A stretch of 47,711 bases of DNA from Oscillospiraceae bacterium (GTDB taxonomy: Bacteria > Bacillota > Clostridia > Oscillospirales > Ruminococcaceae), in NCBI GenBank assembly GCA_902362965.1, contig CABIYQ010000015.1, positions 1-47,711 of the forward strand. The letters run 5' to 3'. The position numbers and the translations under genes are program-made. Position 1 is the stretch's first letter. Each line of letters starts with the position of its first letter. This document shows, piece after piece, positions 6,817 through 39,737 of this stretch. The notes beneath the pieces were generated by a model. It did no database searches. It saw only the letters and a program-made list of their open reading frames with translations, and had not been told where the DNA came from.

Positions 6817-7386
6817 TTATGTTTCATAAGTAGACAGTATACGCTGCGCAACTTCCTTACGGGTCTGACGGGTATCCATAGCCTGTTTTTCAATATATCT
6901 GTGAGCCTGTGGTTCAGAAAATTTTAAGTATTGGATCAAGCAGCATTTGGCTCTGTTAACAAGACGTATTTCTTCTATTTTGGTCTGTAGCTTAAAATTT
7001 TCATTCTGAAGTCCCAGCATTCGTGAACGTGTTGCAGAAACAAGTCTTACCGACTGGTGAAAAACAACTTTGTTTACCGGTTTTGGAACGACGCATACTC
7101 CATAACAGCTGAGTTTGTCTGATACATCTTCTGAAATATCCGATTTACAAATAAGTATGATGCCAGAATTTGAACATTCTGCCGCCTTTATTGAAAATTC
7201 ATGCCCGAACTCATCAGTAAGAGGTGTGTTAATAACAATAAGCTCATATTCGGTTTGATTTATGCAGCGGCGTGCGTCGTTTCCGCTTTTTGTATTAGTA
7301 ATTTGATTGTATCCTGATTCCCGCAAAAGCTGTGATAATAATGTTATGCCTTTATCTGAACCTGAAGCCAAAAGCACTCTTTCCAT
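6817..7386 (-). CDS. ANTAR-domain response-regulator-like antiterminator
   Basis: 189 aa: an N-terminal pseudo-receiver (MERVLLASGSDKG, with TPLTDEFG near the usual phospho-Asp site), a linker coiled coil (QNENFKLQTKIEEI), and a C-terminal ANTAR helix bundle (VNRAKCCLIQYLKFSEPQA ... ARK-like MDTRQTRKEVAQRIL). ANTAR proteins bind paired RNA hairpins with hexaloops and prevent transcription termination. It lies 15 bases downstream of the glnA-like gene and is presumably cotranscribed, as in Clostridium glnA operons. ATG 7386 is preferred over TTG 7398 because the frame aligns from MERV. The receiver lacks the usual D-D at its start, so phosphorylation control is doubtful. Likely regulates the nearby amt and glnA leaders. 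Confidence 0.85.
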   Translation of the reverse strand: MERVLLASGSDKGITLLSQLLRESGYNQITNTKSGNDARRCINQTEYELIVINTPLTDEFGHEFSIKAAECSNSGIILICKSDISEDVSDKLSCYGVCVVPKPVNKVVFHQSVRLVSATRSRMLGLQNENFKLQTKIEEIRLVNRAKCCLIQYLKFSEPQAHRYIEKQAMDTRQTRKEVAQRILSTYET

Positions 7387-7401: not shown

Positions 7402-8691
7402 TTAAATACAATTAAAATAAAATTCATCTTCAAATTTAGATTTATCATCTGCCAAATTATATTTTGTAAGAGTATATGATAAGTGTGAGAACATTGTTTC
7501 ATAAATTTCTTCAGACAGATTATTTTTAACAAAATCGCTTTTTTCAGCAATGGCAACAGCTTCTTCAAGGGTTCCCGGAAGCTCGTCAAAATTAGAAGTA
7601 GAACCGCATGTAAACGTTTTTTCGCTTAACGGCATTTTATTTTCAATGCCTTCAAATCCGGCTGCGAGAAGCAGTTTGAATACTATATAAGGATTGCATG
7701 AAGCGTCTGCGGAACGCACTTCTATTCTTGGGTGTTTTCCGGCAGTATAAGGAATTCTGATAAGCTGTGAACGGTTTTCAAATGACCAGTTTACATATTT
7801 TGGAGCAAAATGCTCTCCCAAACGCTTATAAGAATTGGTTATAGGATTAAGAAAACATGTTATTTCCCTTATTCTGTTTAAAATTCCCGCAACAAACTGA
7901 CTGCCGAGCTCAGTTTGGGTTTCCGGAGTAGGAGAAAAAATGTGTTCGCCGTTCTTTTTTATAGCTATTCCTATATGCAGTCCGCTTCCGAACTGGTTTT
8001 CCAGAGGTTTAGGCATGAAAGTTGCAAACAGACCGTTTTGTGCCGCAACATTTTTAACGACAGTTTTGTAGTATACCATGTTATCGGCAGATGTCAAAGC
8101 ATCACTTCTTTTAAAATCGATTTCATTCTGTCCTGCGCCGTAGGTATGCCGTGAACTTTGGGGATTAAATCCCATTTCTTCAAGAGAAAGACAGATTTCA
8201 CGTCTTACGTTTTCACACTTGTCCAGCGGAGCGATATCAAGGTAACCTGCATTGTCATGAGGAATTTTTGTAGGTTCTCCGTTTTCGTCTGTATTGAACA
8301 GATAAAACTCGCATTTTGTATCAATTTCGCAGCTATAATTTTTTCGTTTTAAGTTATCAATATAACTGCTGAGTTCATTTCTTAGGTCGCCTTTATAATC
8401 AGAGCCGTCAGTACATTTAATGTTGCAGAAAAAACGTATAACCCGACCTGTTTTGGGCCTCCACGGAAGAACAGAAAGAGTAGATATATCCGGAAAAAGC
8501 AGAAGATCGGAATGGCATCCGGCAAGAGTTGTTGCGTCAAAAGGAATGCCGTGTTCAAAAGCGTAGGGAAGCTCGTCAGGCATAATGGCGATATTTTTCA
8601 GATTACCATGGATATCAGCAAAAGTAAGTCTGATAAATTTAACGTCGTTTTCCTCTACAAAGCTTAATATTTCTTTAGGTGTGTAATTCAT
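7402..8691 (-). CDS. glutamine synthetase-like protein (GSI family, divergent active site)
   Basis: 429 aa from ATG 8691, where GGAG precedes MNYTPKEI; the upstream TTG has no site. GSI landmarks are present: FADIHGNLKN, GAGQNEIDF (Glu220 equivalent), FMPKP, GSGLHIG (His269), NSYKRL, and RIEVRSAD. However, the usual HEV before GxGQxE is HTY, the usual P-E-x-E-F is T-K-C-E-F, and the D50 loop (F-D-G-S-S) is F-D-A-T-T. Two classical metal-ligand glutamates (E129 and E212 in enterobacterial numbering) thus appear replaced. It could still amidate glutamate or may have another amine substrate. It is first in an operon with the ANTAR gene and has its own promoter and structured leader. Confidence 0.75.
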   Translation of the reverse strand: MNYTPKEILSFVEENDVKFIRLTFADIHGNLKNIAIMPDELPYAFEHGIPFDATTLAGCHSDLLLFPDISTLSVLPWRPKTGRVIRFFCNIKCTDGSDYKGDLRNELSSYIDNLKRKNYSCEIDTKCEFYLFNTDENGEPTKIPHDNAGYLDIAPLDKCENVRREICLSLEEMGFNPQSSRHTYGAGQNEIDFKRSDALTSADNMVYYKTVVKNVAAQNGLFATFMPKPLENQFGSGLHIGIAIKKNGEHIFSPTPETQTELGSQFVAGILNRIREITCFLNPITNSYKRLGEHFAPKYVNWSFENRSQLIRIPYTAGKHPRIEVRSADASCNPYIVFKLLLAAGFEGIENKMPLSEKTFTCGSTSNFDELPGTLEEAVAIAEKSDFVKNNLSEEIYETMFSHLSYTLTKYNLADDKSKFEDEFYFNCI

Positions 8692-8721
8692 ATCACTAAA
8701 CTCCGTTTTCAAATATTAATA

Positions 8722-8760
8722 TACAAAAATAAAGCAGGGATAGCTTCAATTCTATCCCTA
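8722..8760 (-). terminator. attenuator-type terminator in the glnA-like leader
   Basis: On the minus strand AGGGATAG and CTATCCCT pair around an 8-base loop and are followed by GCTTTATTTTT, 31 bases before the glnA-like start codon and downstream of its promoter. A terminator placed in a leader is the expected target for ANTAR antitermination. The loop contains ATTGAA, which also has A at 1 and G at 4. Confidence 0.7.
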
Positions 8761-8834
8761 TTATTATACGATATTTTTTAACCGATGTAAATAGTACAGA
8801 TTAAAATCATAGTATTTTTATTTACTTAATAATC

Positions 8835-8897
8835 AGAATAAAGGCGTTCACTAGTACTGTTTCAATTGGATGCAATACTGATGAACACCTTTGTTCT
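8835..8897. repeat. long imperfect inverted repeat in the glnA-like leader
   Basis: About 25 bases (8835-8859) pair imperfectly with 8873-8897. On the transcribed minus strand the 5' arm contains the small hairpin with the AAAGGT loop, and the 3' arm carries the matching CCTTT. The two structures exclude each other, so this region could switch. Confidence 0.6.
8883..8896 (-). promoter_or_regulatory. ANTAR-type hairpin, AAAGGT hexaloop, 5' end of the glnA-like leader
   Basis: Minus strand: GAAC-AAAGGT-GTTC, a 4-bp stem with a 6-base loop having A at position 1 and G at position 4, the known ANTAR contact rule. It lies only about four bases from the predicted transcription start. The amt leader has the same loop at the same place. 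Confidence 0.6.
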
Positions 8898-8906
8898 ATT
8901 TTTAAT

Positions 8907-8935
8907 ATAATACTATATTTTTACTAAAATGTCAA
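8907..8935 (-). promoter_or_regulatory. sigma-A promoter for the glnA-like/ANTAR operon
   Basis: On the minus strand TTGACA, 17 bases, TATTAT. The start is expected near 8900, giving a leader of about 210 bases. Confidence 0.75.
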
Positions 8936-9015
8936 GAAAATTCTTAAAAAAATATAGTATTATATATATGCGGGTGTTGAGGACGGAAATAAAAATATTT
9001 TTTTTGAAAAAATGC

Positions 9016-9044
9016 TTGACAAATTGAAATATTTGTTATATACT
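9016..9044 (+). promoter_or_regulatory. sigma-A promoter of the amt-PII gene
   Basis: TTGACA, exactly 17 bases, TATACT. The predicted transcript begins near 9051 and has a leader of about 105 bases. Confidence 0.8.
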
Positions 9045-9055
9045 TAAAACATAGA

Positions 9056-9069
9056 CAGCAAAGGTGCTG
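9056..9069 (+). promoter_or_regulatory. ANTAR-type hairpin, AAAGGT hexaloop, in the amt leader
   Basis: CAGC-AAAGGT-GCTG, a 4-bp stem and hexaloop with A1 and G4. Its 3' half overlaps the 5' arm of the terminator at 9062-9107, so forming this hairpin would disrupt the terminator. This is the arrangement expected for ANTAR control; the second stem of the classical two-hairpin target is not evident. Confidence 0.6.
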
Positions 9070-9107
9070 AGAAAGAAGTTAAAATTTCTTTTTCAGTACC
9101 TTTTTTT
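9062..9107 (+). terminator. attenuator terminator in the amt leader
   Basis: AGGTGCTGAGAAAGAA pairs with TTCTTTTTCAGTACCT (two G-U pairs), followed by seven T. It stands between the promoter and the ribosome site, so transcription of amt would stop here unless the stem is disrupted. Confidence 0.8.
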
Positions 9108-9156
9108 ATTTTCCGGAAAAGCAGTCAATAAATACATATTTTGGAGGATGATTAAT

Positions 9157-10902
9157 ATGGATGCTACTTTTAATGTATGGTTTTTAATCGGCGCTGCGCT
9201 GGTATTTTTCATGCAGTGCGGATTTGCAATGGTGGAAACCGGCTTTACAAGAGCAAAAAATGCCGGTAATATTATAATGAAAAACCTTATGGATTTCTGT
9301 ATCGGAACTGTTGTATTTATTTTAATAGGCTTTGGCTTGCTTTTCGGTGAAGATGCAGTGGGTCTTATCGGTAAACCAGGCTTTGATATTTTTACAAATT
9401 ATCAGAATTTTGACTGGTCAAATTTTGTTTTTAATCTTGTGTTCTGTGCTACAACTGCTACAATTGTTTCAGGCGCTATGGCAGAAAGAACAAAGTTTAT
9501 TTCATATTGTGTTTATTCAGGTGTTATTTCAGCTCTTATTTATCCGATTGAGGCTCACTGGATCTGGGGCGGCGGCTGGCTGTCTCAATGGGGATTCCAT
9601 GACTTTGCAGGTTCATGTGCAATTCACATGGTAGGCGGTATTTCCGCATTGATTGGCGCTAAAATCCTCGGACCTCGTATTGGTAAATTTGAAAAGAAAA
9701 ACGGTAAAATTACTAAAGTTCACGCAATTCCGGGACACTCTCTTACACTCGGTGCATTAGGATGTTTTATTCTTTGGTTTGGATGGTACGGATTTAACGG
9801 AGCTGCTGCAAAAACTGTAGAAGGTCTTGGTTCAATATTCGTAACAACGACAATTGCCCCCGCAGTTGCAACATTTGTTTGTATGATATTTACATGGCTT
9901 AAATACGGCAAGCCTGACGTTTCAATGTGTCTAAATGCTTCGCTTGCAGGTCTTGTCGGAGTTACAGCAGGTTGTGATGTTGTTGACGCTTTAGGTGCAA
10001 CAGCAATCGGTGTGGTTTCCGGTTTGCTTGTTCCGTTTGGCGTATGGCTTCTTGATCATAAGCTGCATATAGACGATCCTGTCGGCGCTGTAGCAGTACA
10101 TATGATGAATGGTATCTGGGGTACTATAGCCGTAGGTCTTTTTGCAACAGGCAATGCTCCTGAAAATGCAACATATGACGAACCTTTTAAAGGCTTATTC
10201 TATGGCGGAGGTTTTGATCTTCTCGGTAAACAGCTTGTAGGTATTCTTGCAGTCGGCGCATGGACAGCCGTTACAATTACAATTACATTCCTTGCAATCA
10301 AAGCTACAATCGGACTCAGAGCTTCCAAGAGAGAAGAAATTATTGGTCTTGATGCTACAGAGCATAATCTTCCATCCAGCTATGCTGACTTTATGCCGTC
10401 GTTTGAAAGTGTTACAGAAATGCAGACTCAGGGTGCAAAGGCTGGGGTAAATACTGCCGGAGTCGTACCTGTGGCACAGGCTGTTCCGGTTTCCGTTGAA
10501 ACTAAATCTACAGCTCCGTCAGACGGAACGCCTAAGCTGACAAAGCTATCAATTATCTGCAAACCGGAAAAACTTGAAACGCTTAAATCATCTCTCAGTT
10601 CTATAGGCGTAAAAGGCATTACAGTAACTAACGTTATGGGATATGGTACTCAGAAGGGTCAAAAGACATATTACCGTGGTGTTGAACGTGATGAAGTTCA
10701 GCTGCTTCCTAAAACAAAGGTTGAAGTTGTTGTTTCCAAAGTACCAGTTGATACGGTCGTTAATACCGCTAAACAAGCTTTATATACCGGTAATATCGGC
10801 GACGGTAAGATCTTTATCTTTGACGTAGAAAATGTTGTAAAGGTTAGAACAGGTGAAGTTGGTTTTGATGCCCTTCAAGGAGAAGATGAAGAATCATTTT
10901 AA
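9157..10902 (+). CDS. ammonium transporter fused to a PII signal protein (Amt-GlnK)
   Basis: 581 aa. Residues 1 to ~410 form an Amt/Rh channel with about eleven membrane helices (FMQCGFAMVETGFTRAKN; AHWIWGGGWL; HMVGGISALIGA; HMMNGIWGT), carrying ammonium across the membrane. After a linker (~430-480), residues ~485-575 are a PII domain (KLTKLSIICKPEKLETLK; T-loop YRGVERDEVQLLPK). In PII the T-loop plugs the Amt pore when ammonium is high. Tyr51, the uridylylation site of enterobacterial GlnB/K, is Arg here, so that switch is missing. ATG 9157 is chosen because GGAGG lies nine bases upstream. The gene is preceded by an ANTAR-style leader and followed by a terminator. No separate PII gene lies nearby. 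Confidence 0.93.
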   Translation: MDATFNVWFLIGAALVFFMQCGFAMVETGFTRAKNAGNIIMKNLMDFCIGTVVFILIGFGLLFGEDAVGLIGKPGFDIFTNYQNFDWSNFVFNLVFCATTATIVSGAMAERTKFISYCVYSGVISALIYPIEAHWIWGGGWLSQWGFHDFAGSCAIHMVGGISALIGAKILGPRIGKFEKKNGKITKVHAIPGHSLTLGALGCFILWFGWYGFNGAAAKTVEGLGSIFVTTTIAPAVATFVCMIFTWLKYGKPDVSMCLNASLAGLVGVTAGCDVVDALGATAIGVVSGLLVPFGVWLLDHKLHIDDPVGAVAVHMMNGIWGTIAVGLFATGNAPENATYDEPFKGLFYGGGFDLLGKQLVGILAVGAWTAVTITITFLAIKATIGLRASKREEIIGLDATEHNLPSSYADFMPSFESVTEMQTQGAKAGVNTAGVVPVAQAVPVSVETKSTAPSDGTPKLTKLSIICKPEKLETLKSSLSSIGVKGITVTNVMGYGTQKGQKTYYRGVERDEVQLLPKTKVEVVVSKVPVDTVVNTAKQALYTGNIGDGKIFIFDVENVVKVRTGEVGFDALQGEDEESF

Positions 10903-10982: not shown

Positions 10983-11009
10983 AGCAATAAAATAAAATCG
11001 TGAATATTG

Positions 11010-11015
11010 TATAAT
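11010..11015 (+). promoter_or_regulatory. probable -10 element of the GH9 gene
   Basis: A perfect TATAAT lies 61 bases before the start codon. No good TTGACA is found 17 bases upstream, so this promoter may need an activator. Confidence 0.4.
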
Positions 11016-11075
11016 ATAATTATTGCAATGTGTATTTTTTTATATATTTTTACTGTTAAGAGAGGAAGGATATTT

Positions 11076-13403
11076 ATGAAGAGTTCAGGTATATTGAACA
11101 AAATTAAAGCTGCAGCAGTCAGTATATCGGTACTGGCGGCTGCTTTGGTTTCGCCGGGCGCCTTGTCGGAAGATTCTGCCGACGCTGCGGAAAGTATTAA
11201 CTATGCCAAGGCTTTGCAGTATTCGCTTTATCTTTATGACGCTAATATGTGCGGATCTGAGGTGGGAGAAAAATCACAGCTAGACTGGCGTGACGACTGT
11301 CATACTTATGATTCTAAGGTTTCAACGCCGTACGGAACAATGGATTTAAGCGGCGGTTATCATGACGCAGGCGATCATGCAAAATTCGGTCTGCCGGCAG
11401 CATATTCTGCCACTATGCTTGGTTGGGGGTATTATGAATTTAAAGACGCATATACCCAGACAGGTCAGGCGAATCACCTCAAAACAATAACGGATTATTT
11501 CTGTGATTATTTCAAGAGATGTACGGTATTTAACGGAACTTCTGTTAAGGCTTTCTGTTATCAAGTTGGCGATGGTAATACTGATCATGACGAATGGAAA
11601 TCACCTGAAAGTCAGACTCTTGCAAGACCTGCATATTTTGCTGATTCAAGTAATCCATGTACCGATGTAGTTGCAGAAACAGCAGCTGCGCTTGCTATGA
11701 ATTACCTGAATTTTAAAAATGAAGAAGATCTTTATTATGCAAAGGCTCTTTATGAGTTTGCAAAGACAAATAATAAGGGAAACCATAATTCCGCTCCGTT
11801 TTATCAAGGCACATGCTATCTGGACGATCTGGCACTGGCTTCAATTATTCTATATAAGGCAACAGGAACTTCTTCATATAAAACCGATTGTGCAAATTGG
11901 ATCAGTCAGTCTAACTGGGCGTATACAACTCAGCAGCCGCTATGTTGGGACAGTGTGTGGCCTGCTGTGAATGCGATATATGCAAACGAGTGGAACAGGG
12001 TGGCTGAAAATATTGACGTACTTAAGGGAAAAGCTAATTCCGAGGGCTATGCTTGTCACGATAATTGGGGATCGGCAAGATATAATACAGCTGAGCAGCT
12101 TATATGTCTGGTATATGATAAATATAATAATTCAAATTCTTATACGACATGGGCGAAAGGTCAGATGGAGTATCTTTTCGGAAACAATAAACTTGGAAAT
12201 TGTTATATGGTAGGTTATAGCAGTAATTCAGTAAAGCATCCGCACCATAGAGCAGCAACAGGCTTTACTAATTTTCCGTCAGAAAATAAGGGAAAAGAAC
12301 ATGCATATGTGCTTGTAGGCGCTCTTGTAGGCGGCCCTGACAGAGACGGAAATTATTACGATGTTACTGATGAATACCACTATACAGAAGTATCTGTTGA
12401 CTACAATGCCGGGTTTGTGGGTGCTTTGGCAGGACTTTATCTGAAATATGGTTCAGGACAGTCTGTGGATTCAAGTATTCCAGGTGTTTCCGGATCAACC
12501 CCTGTAGTTACTACACCGGCAGTTACAACAACTCCAGTTGTTACAAAACCAATTATAACATCAGCTTCAACCAGTTCTTCGTCATCTTCAACTTCATCAA
12601 AAGTGACACAAGAAATTACAACTACATCAAAGTCTGTTGTTACCAGTACTTCTGCAACAGGCGGGGCTGATAGCGGAACAAAGGTTGTTAATGTAAATAC
12701 CTCGCTTAATTATTCCAGTGACAATAATAAGATGTATAAAGTAAATATTTCTGATTTAGTACCAAGCGGAGCAAAAGCAGAAAAATTTATTATAAAGCTT
12801 TCTGCTAACGGTAATATTGGTTCTCCGTCTATCGGCGGCGGAATTTCAGTGACTAACAATACTAATAATTGGCTTGATTTAAACGGAATTCAGAATTTCA
12901 GCGGTTCGTCGGGTACAATAGAATTTGATGTTTCTTCAATTAAGAATGATATTCAATACGATGGAGGTATTTTCCAGATAGGATACTGGTGGGGAGAACA
13001 GTCAAATATAAATGTTGATTCAATAACATGTATTTATACTTCTGAAAGTCAAGCGGTTACTACTGCTTCAACTGCGGTTACTACCAGAAAAACCACGGTG
13101 TCTTCAACTGTTTCAACTAAGATAACGGCTGGTACTACTACTGCTGCAACGACGCCGGATTACGGCGACATTGACTGGGATAAGGTAAAGTACGGTGATG
13201 TTAATCAGGACGGTTATGTAGATTCGGCTGATATAGTTGTTATTAATAAATACCTGTTGAGTCAAGTTGAATATCCGATGAAAAATGCAACTGCTATGGA
13301 AAATGCGGATTGTGACCGTGACGGTGAAATTACAACCAAGGATTCATTTGTGATAATAAATTGCGCTTTGGGATTAATTAATGAAAGTCAAATTGGAAAA
13401 TAA
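11076..13403 (+). CDS. cellulosomal endoglucanase, GH9 catalytic domain + CBM-like domain + dockerin
   Basis: 775 aa, secreted (signal peptide to about residue 35). GH9 domain, residues ~40-455: SGGYHDAGDH (catalytic base/nucleophile pair Asp97/Asp100), HPHHR (388-392) and acid Glu438 in YTEVSVDYNAG. A Thr/Ser/Pro linker leads to a ~130-residue beta-rich module (VNTSLNYSS ... GYWWGEQSNI) that looks carbohydrate-binding but whose family I cannot fix. A second T-rich linker leads to a dockerin: GDVNQDGYVDSADIVVIN and ADCDRDGEITTKDSFVI. Hydrolyses beta-1,4-glucan on the cell surface or in a cellulosome. ATG 11076 follows GAGAGGAAGG. It has no scaffoldin nearby. Confidence 0.92.
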   Translation: MKSSGILNKIKAAAVSISVLAAALVSPGALSEDSADAAESINYAKALQYSLYLYDANMCGSEVGEKSQLDWRDDCHTYDSKVSTPYGTMDLSGGYHDAGDHAKFGLPAAYSATMLGWGYYEFKDAYTQTGQANHLKTITDYFCDYFKRCTVFNGTSVKAFCYQVGDGNTDHDEWKSPESQTLARPAYFADSSNPCTDVVAETAAALAMNYLNFKNEEDLYYAKALYEFAKTNNKGNHNSAPFYQGTCYLDDLALASIILYKATGTSSYKTDCANWISQSNWAYTTQQPLCWDSVWPAVNAIYANEWNRVAENIDVLKGKANSEGYACHDNWGSARYNTAEQLICLVYDKYNNSNSYTTWAKGQMEYLFGNNKLGNCYMVGYSSNSVKHPHHRAATGFTNFPSENKGKEHAYVLVGALVGGPDRDGNYYDVTDEYHYTEVSVDYNAGFVGALAGLYLKYGSGQSVDSSIPGVSGSTPVVTTPAVTTTPVVTKPIITSASTSSSSSSTSSKVTQEITTTSKSVVTSTSATGGADSGTKVVNVNTSLNYSSDNNKMYKVNISDLVPSGAKAEKFIIKLSANGNIGSPSIGGGISVTNNTNNWLDLNGIQNFSGSSGTIEFDVSSIKNDIQYDGGIFQIGYWWGEQSNINVDSITCIYTSESQAVTTASTAVTTRKTTVSSTVSTKITAGTTTAATTPDYGDIDWDKVKYGDVNQDGYVDSADIVVINKYLLSQVEYPMKNATAMENADCDRDGEITTKDSFVIINCALGLINESQIGK

Positions 13404-13718: not shown

Positions 13719-14906
13719 ATGGCAAAAAAATTTTTTACATCTGAATCAGTTACTGAAGGACATCCTGATAAAATCTGCGATCAGGTATCTGATGCAATTC
13801 TGGATGCCCTTCTGGAGCAGGATCCTAATTCGAGAGTAGCTTGTGAAACTGTCTGCACAACAGGTATGGTAATGTGCATGGGCGAAATAAGCACTAAAGC
13901 TTATGCTGATATTCCGAAAATTGTAAGAGAGGTTATTGTTGATATCGGATATGATCGGGCTAAGTATGGATTTGATGGCTATACATGTTCAGTGATTACA
14001 ACAATCGACGAGCAGTCGGGCGATATTGCAATGGGTGTGAACGAGGCGCTTGAATCAAAGGAAGGCGATATGTCGGACGATAATTCAACAGGCGCCGGCG
14101 ATCAGGGACTTATGTTCGGATATGCCTGCAATGAAACTCCGGAGCTTATGCCTATGCCGATTTCTATGGCTCATAAGCTTGCGCTGAAGCTTACCGAAGT
14201 AAGAAAGGACGGTACCTTGCGTTACCTTCGTCCTGACGGAAAAACGCAGGTTACTGTTGAATATGATGATGATAAGCCGGTAAGAATTGAAACTATTGTA
14301 GTTTCATCACAGCATGCTCCGGAAATCACACTTGATCAGATAAAGAAAGATATTATTGAATATGTAATCAAACCTGTTGTTCCGGCAGAGCTGATTGACG
14401 AAAATACTAAATATTATATTAACCCTACAGGTCGTTTTGTAATTGGCGGTCCTCAGGGCGACAGCGGTCTTACAGGAAGAAAAATTATAGTTGATACTTA
14501 CGGCGGTTATTCCCGTCACGGCGGCGGAGCATTTTCAGGTAAGGATCCTACAAAGGTTGACAGATCTGCGGCATATGCGGCGAGATATATTGCCAAGAAT
14601 GTTGTTGCTGCCGGACTTGCAGATAAGTGTGAAGTTCAGCTGGCATATGCAATAGGAGTTGCCAAACCTGTTTCCATACTTATTGACACATTCGGTACGG
14701 GAAAGGTTGACGAAGAGAAGCTTTCAGCTGCTGTTGACAAGGTGTTCGATCTTCGTCCTGCCGCAATCATCAAGATGCTTGATTTAAGAAAGCCTCAGTA
14801 TAGAAAGCTTGCCGCTTACGGTCATATGGGACGTGAAGATTTAGGCGTTGTATGGGAAAAAACTGATAAAGTTGACGCAATAAAAGAGGCTTTGGCGGAA
14901 CTATAA
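13719..14906 (+). CDS. metK: S-adenosylmethionine synthetase
   Basis: 395 aa, full length. Makes SAM from methionine and ATP. Diagnostic motifs: [17 protein letters not shown] (N-terminal ATP/Met binding), [33 protein letters not shown] and [20 protein letters not shown]. The SAM riboswitch and terminator directly upstream regulate it. ATG 13719 begins [10 protein letters not shown] as in other MetK proteins. Monocistronic: a terminator follows. Confidence 0.98.
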
Positions 14907-14975: not shown

Positions 14976-16061
14976 ATGCAGTTAAGAAAAATGTTCAGCG
15001 GAATTTTGACTGCTGCGGTTTCCTTTACGGCGGTGTTATGTATTGGTCAGAATAGAAGCGATAATCCTGTAAGAGTATCTGCGGCGGAGGAGCCGGTAAA
15101 AATTATGGCGTTGGGCGATTCCATAACAGACGGTTATTTCGGGACCGACGGATATCGCAAATATTTTTATCACAATATGACTGAAATGGGTCATGACATT
15201 GATATGGTCGGCGCAAAGGATTACAGCGGCTGGAATCCCTCATATACTGACAGTAACGGGGTGACCTTTGAGTATGACGGAGACCATTCCGGCTACAGCG
15301 GATATGCAATTCAGTATATGACCGGTACTGAAACAAGACAAGGACTGTTGGAAACAGTGCAGAGTACTGATATGATAAAAAAATGCGATCCGGATATTGT
15401 TTTGCTGCAAATCGGAACAAACGATATTTTAAGCAATTATAATGAAGGTATAATAGACCGTCTTGAAAATCTTGTAAACGTTATACTTGAAGATATGAAT
15501 GATTCTGATGACGTTGTTTTTGTTTCTACTATTCCGTATATGGACGTTTTAATGGTTTATGATTGGTTCTGGTCATACGGGGAGGTTAAATCCGATAATT
15601 CTCAGGAGGACTTTGCAAAGATTGTTCATGGATATGTAGACAGTTACAATGATCAGATAAAGCAGATGGTAACGGAAATGCAGACGCAGGGAAAACCCAT
15701 AAAATTTGCAGATATCAACAGTGTTATTGATCCGTCAACTGATTTGCAGGATGGTATTCACCCTAATGAGACAGGCTATCAAAAAATGGGAACTTACTGG
15801 TCAAATCTTGTGGATGATTATTTGAGTACTGAGCCTGAAACTACAACTGAGGAAACAACATCGGCTGATAAGTATAAAAAAGGCGATGTAAATACTGACG
15901 GTGAGATTAATGTTTCTGATATGATTGTTTTACAGAAATATCTGCTGAAAAAAGGCGGTATTCTTCCGGAACAGACTTACTATGCAGATATGGACAATAA
16001 TAACATGCTGAATATATTTGACAGTATTCAGCTGAAACGTTTGCTGATATTAAACGAATAA
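14976..16061 (+). CDS. secreted SGNH/GDSL esterase (CE3-like) with dockerin
   Basis: 361 aa with a signal peptide (to about residue 37). SGNH hydrolase domain, residues ~42-285: block I GDSIT with Ser49, GTND (147-150) and DGIHP with Asp259/His262 complete the triad; layout fits carbohydrate esterase family 3 acetyl-xylan esterases. A TTTEETTS linker leads to a dockerin (GDVNTDGEINVSDMIVLQKYLL; second loop DMDNNNMLNIFD is degenerate). Removes acetyl groups from plant xylan alongside the GH9 enzyme. ATG 14976 follows AAAGGAGGAA. Its dockerin resembles that of the GH9 protein rather than those of the LRR proteins. Confidence 0.85.
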   Translation: MQLRKMFSGILTAAVSFTAVLCIGQNRSDNPVRVSAAEEPVKIMALGDSITDGYFGTDGYRKYFYHNMTEMGHDIDMVGAKDYSGWNPSYTDSNGVTFEYDGDHSGYSGYAIQYMTGTETRQGLLETVQSTDMIKKCDPDIVLLQIGTNDILSNYNEGIIDRLENLVNVILEDMNDSDDVVFVSTIPYMDVLMVYDWFWSYGEVKSDNSQEDFAKIVHGYVDSYNDQIKQMVTEMQTQGKPIKFADINSVIDPSTDLQDGIHPNETGYQKMGTYWSNLVDDYLSTEPETTTEETTSADKYKKGDVNTDGEINVSDMIVLQKYLLKKGGILPEQTYYADMDNNNMLNIFDSIQLKRLLILNE

Positions 16062-19331: not shown

Positions 19332-19360
19332 TTGACATTAAGTTTAGTGTATGGTAAAAT
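19332..19360 (+). promoter_or_regulatory. promoter of the first LRR-dockerin gene
   Basis: TTGACA, 17 bases, TAAAAT, 32 bases before the start codon. Confidence 0.75.
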
Positions 19361-19392
19361 ATAAATATTATTATAAAGGAATAGCGAACGAT

Positions 19393-20700
19393 ATGAAAAT
19401 GAATAAAAAAATTATAAATCTTTTAGCGTCTGTGATATGCATTTCAAGTATTGTCGGTGTTCAGCCTACAGTTTTAGCAGTAACTGAAGATATGACAAAT
19501 AAATCAAGTGATTTATCTGTGTCGGGTACAGCTGACATTATAGCGTCAGGAGAGTGCGGAGCATACGGCGATAATCTTATGTATAAGTTGAACTCCGAAG
19601 GTGTTTTAACAATAAGCGGTCAAGGCGAAATGGCTGATTGGTTTACAAATACAGTGCCATGGAAGGATTACAAAAATAGCGGTAAGATAACCAGAGTAAT
19701 AATTCATGAGGGTGTAACATCTGTATCGACTAAAGCTTTTGTTTCTTGCGAGAGTTTGGAATATGCGTTTATACCTAGCTCTATGAAAGATATTGACGGC
19801 TTTACAGCATGTTCTTCTCTAAAAAGTATCAATTTACCGGAGGGACTGGAGACAATTGGAATTCAGGCATTTTGCGATTGTGACAGTCTGAAAACCGTAA
19901 TCATTCCTTCAAGTGTTAATAGTATCGGATTCGGCGCTTTTGAATGGTGTGATTCATTAACTGAAATAAAAGTAAAATCCAATAATGCGTATTTTACAGA
20001 TATTAACGGAGTACTTTACAACAAGGATAAGACGAAGATAATACAGTATCCTAAAGCTAAAACACAAACTTCGTATATAATTCCTTCAAGTGTAACTACA
20101 GTAGGTAGGGACGCCTTTGAAGAATGTGAAAATCTTAAAAGTATTATTCTTCCTGAAAAACTTACATCAATAGAAGAAAGTGCATTTAGCAGCAGCGGTA
20201 TAAAAACAATTGAAATACCAGCAGGCGTTACAACTATAAGTAGGTCTGCGTTTAACAGTTCGTTTATCGAAAGTATAGTGCTTCCAAACAATATTGTAAA
20301 AATAGATGAAATGGCTTTCAGAAACTGCAAAAACCTTAAAAAAATATTTATTCAGAATCCTCAATGTGAAATTGATGATAGCTTTGGTACTATATGCAGT
20401 AATCTGGCTTTTGAGAATGCATATAGACAATTCGACGGTATTATTTACGGCTATGAAAATTCTACAGCTCATGCTTATGCACAAAAATATGAATATCCTT
20501 TTTCTGCCTTTATTTATGGTGACGCTAACAGTGACGGTAAGCTTACAGCCGGTGACGCCGCATTTATAGCGAAAAATCTTGCAGAGCAGAAGGGTCATAC
20601 ATTGCCTGCATATGCAGACTTTACAGGTGACGGTAAAGTAACCGCTTATGACGCAGCAATGATTGCAAAGTATCTTGCAGAACAAAGTCTGAAAAATTAA
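19393..20700 (+). CDS. secreted BspA-type leucine-rich-repeat protein with dockerin
   Basis: 435 aa with a signal peptide (to about residue 31). Residues ~60-360 are BspA/LRR_5 repeats (pattern I-P-x-x-V-x-x-I-x-x-x-A-F-x-x-C-x-x-L), as in surface proteins that bind host or polymer ligands. The insert DINGVLYNKDKTKIIQYP is typical of this family. C-terminal dockerin: GDANSDGKLTAGDAAFIAK and ADFTGDGKVTAYDAAMIAK. ATG 19393 lies after AAAGGAATAGCGAACG; the longer frame from 19351 begins inside the -10 region and is rejected. The dockerin is the same kind as in the genes at 5595 and 32068, not the enzyme kind. Confidence 0.85.
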   Translation: MKMNKKIINLLASVICISSIVGVQPTVLAVTEDMTNKSSDLSVSGTADIIASGECGAYGDNLMYKLNSEGVLTISGQGEMADWFTNTVPWKDYKNSGKITRVIIHEGVTSVSTKAFVSCESLEYAFIPSSMKDIDGFTACSSLKSINLPEGLETIGIQAFCDCDSLKTVIIPSSVNSIGFGAFEWCDSLTEIKVKSNNAYFTDINGVLYNKDKTKIIQYPKAKTQTSYIIPSSVTTVGRDAFEECENLKSIILPEKLTSIEESAFSSSGIKTIEIPAGVTTISRSAFNSSFIESIVLPNNIVKIDEMAFRNCKNLKKIFIQNPQCEIDDSFGTICSNLAFENAYRQFDGIIYGYENSTAHAYAQKYEYPFSAFIYGDANSDGKLTAGDAAFIAKNLAEQKGHTLPAYADFTGDGKVTAYDAAMIAKYLAEQSLKN

Positions 20701-39365: not shown

Positions 39366-39737
39366 GGACTTTGAAAATTGAATACACATTCACTAAGACT
39401 TTATTTCTGATGATGAGCCGCAGCGTCGGGTACGCCAAGACTTTTAATAAACGAGCGAGAACTCCCGGCACAAATATCGGGTTGCCACCGATATGGCGAA
39501 GACAGTCAGAATGACAATGATACTTCTCTACGGAGCTGGCGGAGAAACCGGCAGAGGTGAAATTCCTATGATACAGATTAGCAGTCTGTTCCTTAGTGAC
39601 TTCCCATAGCAAGGGGTGTTGAGAACAAATATTGCTATAATGAATATTTCAGCCGGGGAAACGGTGCGTTTTCTCGGCTGTCTACATAGCCGCTTTTGGC
39701 AGGCGGCTATAAATCTAACGGAAGGAGGAACGCAGCA

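Follow-up and report, generated by a model that had tools for sequence, protein, structure and literature searches.

Two genes for nitrogen assimilation, glnA and amt, are transcribed away from each other in this Oscillospiraceae genome. The stretch between them (8692–9156 of the 47.7-kb window, by which we mean the whole 47,711 nucleotides analysed) holds two divergent promoters, each followed at once by a small hairpin with the loop AAAGGT. Hexaloops with A at position 1 and G at position 4 (A1/G4) are the hallmark of ANTAR-target RNA, known from the dual-hexaloop attenuators of eut, nas and ami (Ramesh et al. 2012, PMC3369931). The locus therefore raises the question of whether a lone hairpin at the very 5′ end of a transcript can serve as such a target and, if so, what reads it. 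With a probability of about 0.8, we consider these leaders to be reduced, single-hexaloop transcription attenuators of the ANTAR (NitR) type, controlled by the product of the ANTAR gene next to glnA. The relevant features of the window are as follows.

9016..9044, plus strand: amt promoter TTGACA-N17-TATACT, predicted by promoter scan
9056..9069, plus strand: single hexaloop hairpin CAGC-AAAGGT-GCTG, antiterminator and proposed ANTAR site, 11 nt past the −10
9060..9103, plus strand: amt intrinsic terminator, 20 pairs and then a T-run, from terminator scan and fold
9157..10902, plus strand: amt, ammonium transporter with a fused C-terminal PII domain (PF00909, 408.7 bits; PF00543, 88.6 bits)
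8907..8935, minus strand: distal glnA promoter TTGACA-N17-TATTAT, predicted by promoter scan
8883..8896, minus strand: single hexaloop hairpin GAAC-AAAGGT-GTTC, 10 nt past the −10
8840..8892, minus strand: long competing stem, terminator-like, with the tail ATTCTGATTATT, a poor U-tract (fold, z −6.25)
8763..8791, minus strand: second glnA promoter TTTACA-N17-TATAAT, downstream of the ANTAR-type leader
8736..8759, minus strand: hairpin AGGGATAG-N8-CTATCCCT, directly after the second −10, then a T-rich tail
7402..8691, minus strand: glnA, glutamine synthetase type I, from a profile match
6817..7386, minus strand: NitR-like ANTAR regulator, a receiver-like domain without phospho-Asp plus an ANTAR domain

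On its own, the small hairpin folds at −5.5 kcal/mol in the amt leader and at −3.8 kcal/mol in the glnA leader. Loop and 3′ arm of the amt hairpin together make up the 5′ arm of the amt terminator (−25.3 kcal/mol, z −7.1), which is a textbook terminator; in the glnA leader, the corresponding loop and arm are likewise reused in the competing stem. An earlier note on this DNA had described divergent TTGACA-N17 promoters, a 4-bp AAAGGT hairpin about a dozen bases after each −10, a longer stem competing with it and an ANTAR gene next to glnA. All four points are borne out: the promoters lie at 9016–9044 (+) and 8935–8907 (−), the spacings are 11 and 10 nt, folds and overlapping coordinates set a much stronger stem against the small hairpin in both leaders, and the ANTAR domain of the protein is a typical one (PF03861, 60 bits). 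The note had also placed a terminator ahead of each gene, which holds for amt; for glnA, the stem 8892–8840 is terminator-like but has a poor U-tract and is absent from the list of the terminator scan. Missing from the note were the second glnA promoter and its hairpin at 8736–8759, which differs in kind, having no A1/G4 hexaloop; by eye, comparable 5′-end hairpins after a TATAAT-like box precede glnA in two related loci (L003 and L061).

The proposed switch would work as follows. RNA polymerase would start a few bases before the hairpin. If the regulator is inactive, the AAAGGT loop and the 3′ arm would pair with the arm containing CCTTT, the terminator would form and transcription would stop. 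When nitrogen is short, the ANTAR protein would grip the single hexaloop by A1, G4 and the closing C-G and hold the small hairpin, and the polymerase would read through into amt or glnA. Unlike in known ANTAR targets, no P1 recruitment hairpin would take part: no structure precedes the hexaloop in the predicted transcript. Binding by the ANTAR protein is suggested by the match to the motif, by covariation and by the co-occurrence of the genes, and we infer the transcript starts, the direction of control and the nitrogen signal.

Exactly two AAAGGT hairpins with four Watson-Crick pairs exist in the window, namely these. In 2000 dinucleotide shuffles of the intergenic stretch the mean was 0.0055 such hairpins and two were never reached. 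A1/G4 loops in general are not rare, since 173 of the 2000 shuffles gave two in that stretch, and the whole window has 39 A1/G4 hexaloop hairpins. Because such loops are common in the window, the weight of the case rests on relatives. The first sample came from a protein-only search for relatives of the ANTAR protein; of 544 loci, the best 80 were taken. For an amt sample, 50 genomes were searched, 43 had an amt match and loci were taken for 30. A second, class-wide sample was selected on the protein alone and comprised 91 loci with an ANTAR gene, from 90 of 91 matching genomes (all but G300). In the first sample plus the window, hexaloop hairpins overlap a terminator in 44 of 1394 cases for A1/G4 versus 51 of 19,958 for all other classes. 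A CAGC or GAGC hairpin is present in 24 of the 30 amt loci, six of these leaders repeating earlier ones; another four have a different A1/G4 hairpin only, and two have none in the stretch examined. In the second sample, A1/G4 loops account for 47 single leaders, spread over 30 loci, and the other 15 classes combined for 6. A control on 110 loci and the window, with duplicates removed, required a promoter matching at least 10 of 12 positions, a −10 ending 4–18 nt upstream of the hairpin and an overlapping terminator; this combination was found for 56 of 1568 A1/G4 hairpins versus 3 of 21,779 in the other loop classes. Thus, the leader is neither a chance occurrence nor confined to one genome, and its single 5′-proximal hairpin is conserved.

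Altogether, 136 distinct leaders of the same form (43 distinct 14-mers) were gathered from related genomes, and the named source genomes are Clostridia. Pairing, A1 and G4 were filter conditions for this set, the other positions being free. Two rows had been dropped as chance before gene sorting and the stem count (L156 at 1663 and L192 at 263). Neither has the usual closing pair, and each departs at one loop position as well, position 2 in one and position 5 in the other. The gene behind the leader was assigned for 97 of the 136 by BLAST to one example each, with the examples for GSIII, asnA and both forms of glutamate synthase checked by Pfam. Ammonia assimilation dominates: 87 of the 97 precede amt (30), GSIII (25), glutamate synthase (19, of which 12 split and 7 large), asnA (7), glnA (4) or PII alone (2, L150 and L186). 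One more precedes a PurF-like gene (L190), and nine fall under other genes or too little sequence; two of these nine are accounted for, L003 being amt by its N-terminus and L024 being asnA in the longer locus L132. Further genes behind leaders, some of them outside the 97, encode CTP synthase, GatC, an AraC-type regulator, a family-5 binding protein and a Peripla_BP_6 binding protein. The search of relatives for such hairpins at promoters of nitrogen genes, which the earlier note had suggested, was thus productive. A 5′ single-hairpin leader in many gut and soil Clostridia, on mRNAs for ammonia uptake and use, suggests that the switch can work with one hairpin.

Stems ending in GC precede amt, GSIII or asnA in 62 cases, PII in two, the PurF-like gene in one and glutamate synthase in one, whereas stems ending in AC precede glutamate synthase or glnA in 22. 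That the stem dialect tracks the gene class is a lead only, given that the loci are related and that GAGC and AGGC stems blur the split.

Two further observations concern the range of these leaders. Tandem single-hexaloop attenuators stand within one leader in L263 (+, 9981 and 10070), L237 (+, 10594; by eye), L167 and L203. A spirochaete-labelled record (L075, +, 353) has the hairpin GGAC-AAAGGC-GTCC and a strong terminator ahead of a gene like split gltB, but no good promoter was found; either this is a similar leader outside Clostridia or the bin is mislabelled.

Covariation in homologous leaders, which the earlier note had named as a check on its reading, was examined in the CAGC-type, the GAAC-type and the 136-leader sets; the outcome does not refute the reading. 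Across 39 CAGC-type leaders (alignment A2), 92.9% of the cells of the terminator stem are paired and both sides have changed in 12 of 18 pairs. The covariation score is 0.616 versus 0.253 for shuffled alignments, above all 500 shuffles, with slid controls reaching at most 0.170. Loop positions 3, 5 and 6 (columns 7, 9 and 10) co-vary with their terminator partners, as AU/GC, GC/AU and CG/AU/UA/GC, respectively. A1, A2 and G4 (columns 5, 6 and 8) are constant in the CAGC-type leaders, though the base opposite G4 in the terminator is C in some leaders and U in others. Among these 39, the small stem is nearly invariant. Terminator covariation in 22 GAAC-type leaders agrees. Over all 136 leaders, the small stem does vary, with CG/GC/AT/GT/TA/TG at pair 1, AT/GC/GT at pair 2 and GC/AT/GT at pair 3, while the closing pair is C-G in all 136 (and in 136 of 138 if the two dropped rows are counted). 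The loop consensus is A-A-N-G-R-N. The SELEX data on NasR reported in PMC7496416 show the same preference for a closing C:G, A1 and G4.

Curated Rfam families at the gathering score gave no match at the leaders in the window, nor anywhere in 20 loci. At permissive settings the best match was to a microRNA model (E 0.0053), which we attribute to a chance resemblance to a long hairpin. Elsewhere in the window, a SAM riboswitch (RF00162, 13503–13608, +, 76.5 bits) lies ahead of the ORF at 13719, presumably an S-adenosylmethionine synthase, and a pemK RNA match (RF02913) is located at 39514–39571 (+, 69.4 bits). Secreted proteins seem to be encoded at 11007–13403, 14976–16061 and 19351–20700 (+); their C-terminal regions resemble dockerin repeats, and one has a body like that of a glycoside hydrolase. 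If this resemblance is a guide, the source is perhaps a cellulosome-type rumen bacterium.

The ANTAR gene is as closely tied to glnA in relatives as in the window: glnA lies immediately upstream of it in 76 of the best 80 of 544 loci. The other four (L001, L073, L078 and L079) lie on short or truncated contigs and gave no glnA match. The receiver of the encoded protein gives a weak match of 25.5 bits, under the cut-off of 30.2. At the phosphorylation site stands N53, with N in 14 and S in one of 15 aligned relatives (alignment A1); N53 aligns to the Asp of 1s8n/Rv1626, and a phosphorylatable Asp of the EutV type is not found there. Met170 and Arg173 are invariant in the 15 relatives and, by hand mapping, match the EutV contacts Met172 and Arg175; the same mapping puts His162 at the position of EutV Tyr164, which stacks on G4 (PMC8934654), and Glu166 at that of Arg168. 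Without the usual phosphorylation site in its receiver, the ANTAR protein probably gets the signal from a partner, either glutamine synthetase or the PII domain. Glutamine synthetase is a candidate because of the adjacency of glnA, and the PII domain of amt is another. AmiR too has an aspartate-less receiver, and the enrichment of such receivers with ANTAR outputs, as given in PMC4395418, likewise suggests that the signal comes from a partner protein.

Leader and protein also occur together. A model of the leader (R1), as the earlier note had advised, was run against 245 genomes of one class and scores at least 40 bits in 42 of them; one genome, G024, contributed a leader to R1. Weak R1 matches that start at model position 5 resemble ordinary terminators, and we left them out of the target count. 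Among the 42 R1-positive genomes, 34 encode a NitR-like ANTAR protein (E at most 1e-25), compared with 32 among the remaining 203 (Fisher p 4e-16, uncorrected for kinship). Five of the eight R1-positive genomes without it carry another ANTAR domain, so that an ANTAR domain was not found in 3 of the 42, whose assemblies may be incomplete. Conversely, an R1 match at 40 bits is absent in 32 of the 66 genomes with a NitR-like ANTAR protein. No single leader was found in the fetched stretch of 35 of 65 NitR-like loci, where several stretches end at contig ends.

Of the alternatives, the one that fares best, though we regard it as improbable, accepts a true attenuator but lets the hairpin respond to a different RNA-binding protein, to a metabolite or to transcription speed, so that the ANTAR gene would be a mere neighbour. 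The three R1-positive genomes without any ANTAR match would fit it, and the role of the ANTAR protein is inferred and its binding predicted. However, A1, A2, G4 and the closing C-G stay fixed while other loop positions drift with compensation, and the co-occurrence with similar ANTAR genes is strong. For a metabolite, a 6-nt loop on a 4-bp stem would be small as a pocket.

Less probable still is a classical dual-hexaloop target whose first hairpin (P1) was overlooked. The −10 ends 5–20 nt before the hairpin in 99 leaders, in a set limited to 4–20 nt, and in 71 of them at 9–12 nt; between predicted start and leader hairpin, none of the 99 has a hexaloop hairpin of at least 3 bp. In the 60 nt upstream of these 99 leaders, A1/G4 hairpins number 4 versus a mean of 6.2 for other loop classes, so there is no enrichment, and a P1-like hairpin was found upstream of 1 of 42 leaders (L075, the one without a good promoter). 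We therefore rejected a hidden P1. More room for one is left by four GAAC-type leaders (L047, L050, L052 and L063), in which the predicted −10 is 35–52 nt away; in the unrestricted table from which these come, it lies within 17 nt in the other 36 of 40 leaders with a promoter. In the amt leaders of L005–L007, the terminator is capped by a second ANNGNN hexaloop, carried by a strong stem. As a general second site this apical loop was rejected, being absent in the window, L008, L014 and L015.

Beside less closely related ANTAR genes, dual motifs are present at L212 (−, 12749), L215 (−, 9824) and L294 (+, 11605). In ten loci at such genes, a similar detector found dual motifs in L212 and L215, both before glnA, with other loop classes giving up to two dual motifs each. 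Across the 91 ANTAR loci there are 3 dual A1/G4 motifs versus 5 in the other classes, so the dual count alone is not above chance; the three stand out by their common layout, with a loop spacing of 39 nt. All 30 single-leader loci are among the 65 with a more similar ANTAR protein and the three dual ones among the 26 with a less similar protein (Fisher p 4e-6 and 0.02, respectively). The leaders thus share with the canonical ANTAR target an A1/G4 hexaloop, a short C-G-closed stem and an overlapping, exclusive terminator (with a weak U-tract at glnA of the window), but not the tandem pair of hexaloops with a short linker, as judged from predicted starts. The view in the earlier note of one clear hairpin at the 5′ end, a reduced or variant target, gains support from this conservation of a single hairpin.

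The weakest alternative, to which we give almost no credence, is that these are ordinary terminators whose 5′ arm happens to fold a small hairpin and is A-rich to pair with the U-tract, which would favour A at loop positions 1–3 and would fit the somewhat more frequent overlap with terminators of A1 loops with another fourth base than of most classes (AA 10, AC 7, AT 3), but once a promoter is required these loops give 0 of 4538 (AA 1770, AC 1269, AT 1499) versus 56 of 1568 for A1/G4, and the genes behind the leaders, 87 of 97, are mostly for ammonia assimilation.

Within the single-hexaloop ANTAR reading, the glnA leader of the window calls for separate comment. In L002, L003 and L024 the ANTAR gene belongs to a GS/GOGAT cluster in which genes further upstream, between the GAAC leader and glnA, are glutamate-synthase-like; these names are partly our assumption, and the first such gene of L024 matches class-II glutamine amidotransferases. 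In the window, the GAAC leader directly precedes glnA. The stretches compared with window positions 8692–8840 are these:

L002, 209–5694: glutamate-synthase-like stretch
L003, 422–5681: glutamate-synthase-like stretch
L024, 265–5644: glutamate-synthase-like stretch

The L002 copies of these genes have no match in the 47.7-kb window, where only glnA and the ANTAR gene match. Judging from this comparison, the arrangement in the window may be the remnant of a deletion, with which the poor U-tract and the second promoter would fit, and this glnA copy may be a weakened attenuator.

As a kind, ANTAR attenuators and their use for nitrogen genes are already known: PMC3369931 predicts targets at PII, ammonium transporters, and glutamine and glutamate synthases. 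The leaders resemble the ANTAR-target RNA of that paper in the A1/G4 hexaloop, the short stem, the exclusive terminator and a regulator with an ANTAR domain. They differ in having one hairpin, which overlaps the terminator and comes first in the predicted transcript, and a receiver without phospho-Asp. The literature on binding to a single hairpin is mixed. Deletion of the second stem-loop abolished binding of an EutV ANTAR construct (PMC3369931), and NasR bound P2 alone at about 12 µM versus 1 µM for both hairpins, some twelve-fold worse (PMC7496416), whereas EutV bound isolated P1 and P2 similarly, making a single hexaloop the minimal binding unit (NAR 2022, PMC8934654). According to the latter paper, single-hexaloop sites may exist and are expected where a transcribing polymerase sets no time limit. 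Antitermination is held in that paper to require the two hexaloops one after the other, with P1 recruiting the dimer and P2 blocking the terminator. Unlike in that model, the leaders described here, known from sequence, look like attenuators with one hexaloop. NitR of Clostridium saccharobutylicum is said to induce the GS/GOGAT cycle genes on nitrogen limitation by antitermination (Stutz et al. 2007, cited in PMC6316151), a reported role with which the proposed nitrogen-limitation antitermination agrees; Stutz et al. may already describe this hairpin in that species. The partners of AmiR and NasT are AmiC (PMC4395418) and NasS, whose complex with NasT dissociates on sensing nitrate or nitrite (PMC3795266), whereas here glnA is the constant neighbour and its product a candidate partner only. 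A single-hexaloop, start-proximal ANTAR attenuator, its covariation and its spread were not found in the literature searched, mostly open-access main texts.

A bolder proposal, possible but on balance doubtful, is that these leaders form a separate clostridial class of ANTAR attenuator for nitrogen assimilation. One first-structure hexaloop would suffice, because an ANTAR protein without a phosphorylation site would load with no recruitment hairpin, perhaps on the starting polymerase, and would be released or held by glutamine synthetase or PII; the two stem dialects, GC-ending mostly at amt, GSIII and asnA and AC-ending at glutamate synthase and glnA, would give one protein two response levels. 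On the main reading, a widespread, covarying attenuator with only the second hexaloop makes the requirement for two hexaloops testable on a leader of about 60 nt. It also provides a specific search model for a nitrogen regulon of gut and rumen Clostridia that two-hairpin models would be likely to overlook. Finally, it draws attention to an ANTAR protein lacking a phosphorylation site, for which glutamine synthetase itself is a possible signal input.
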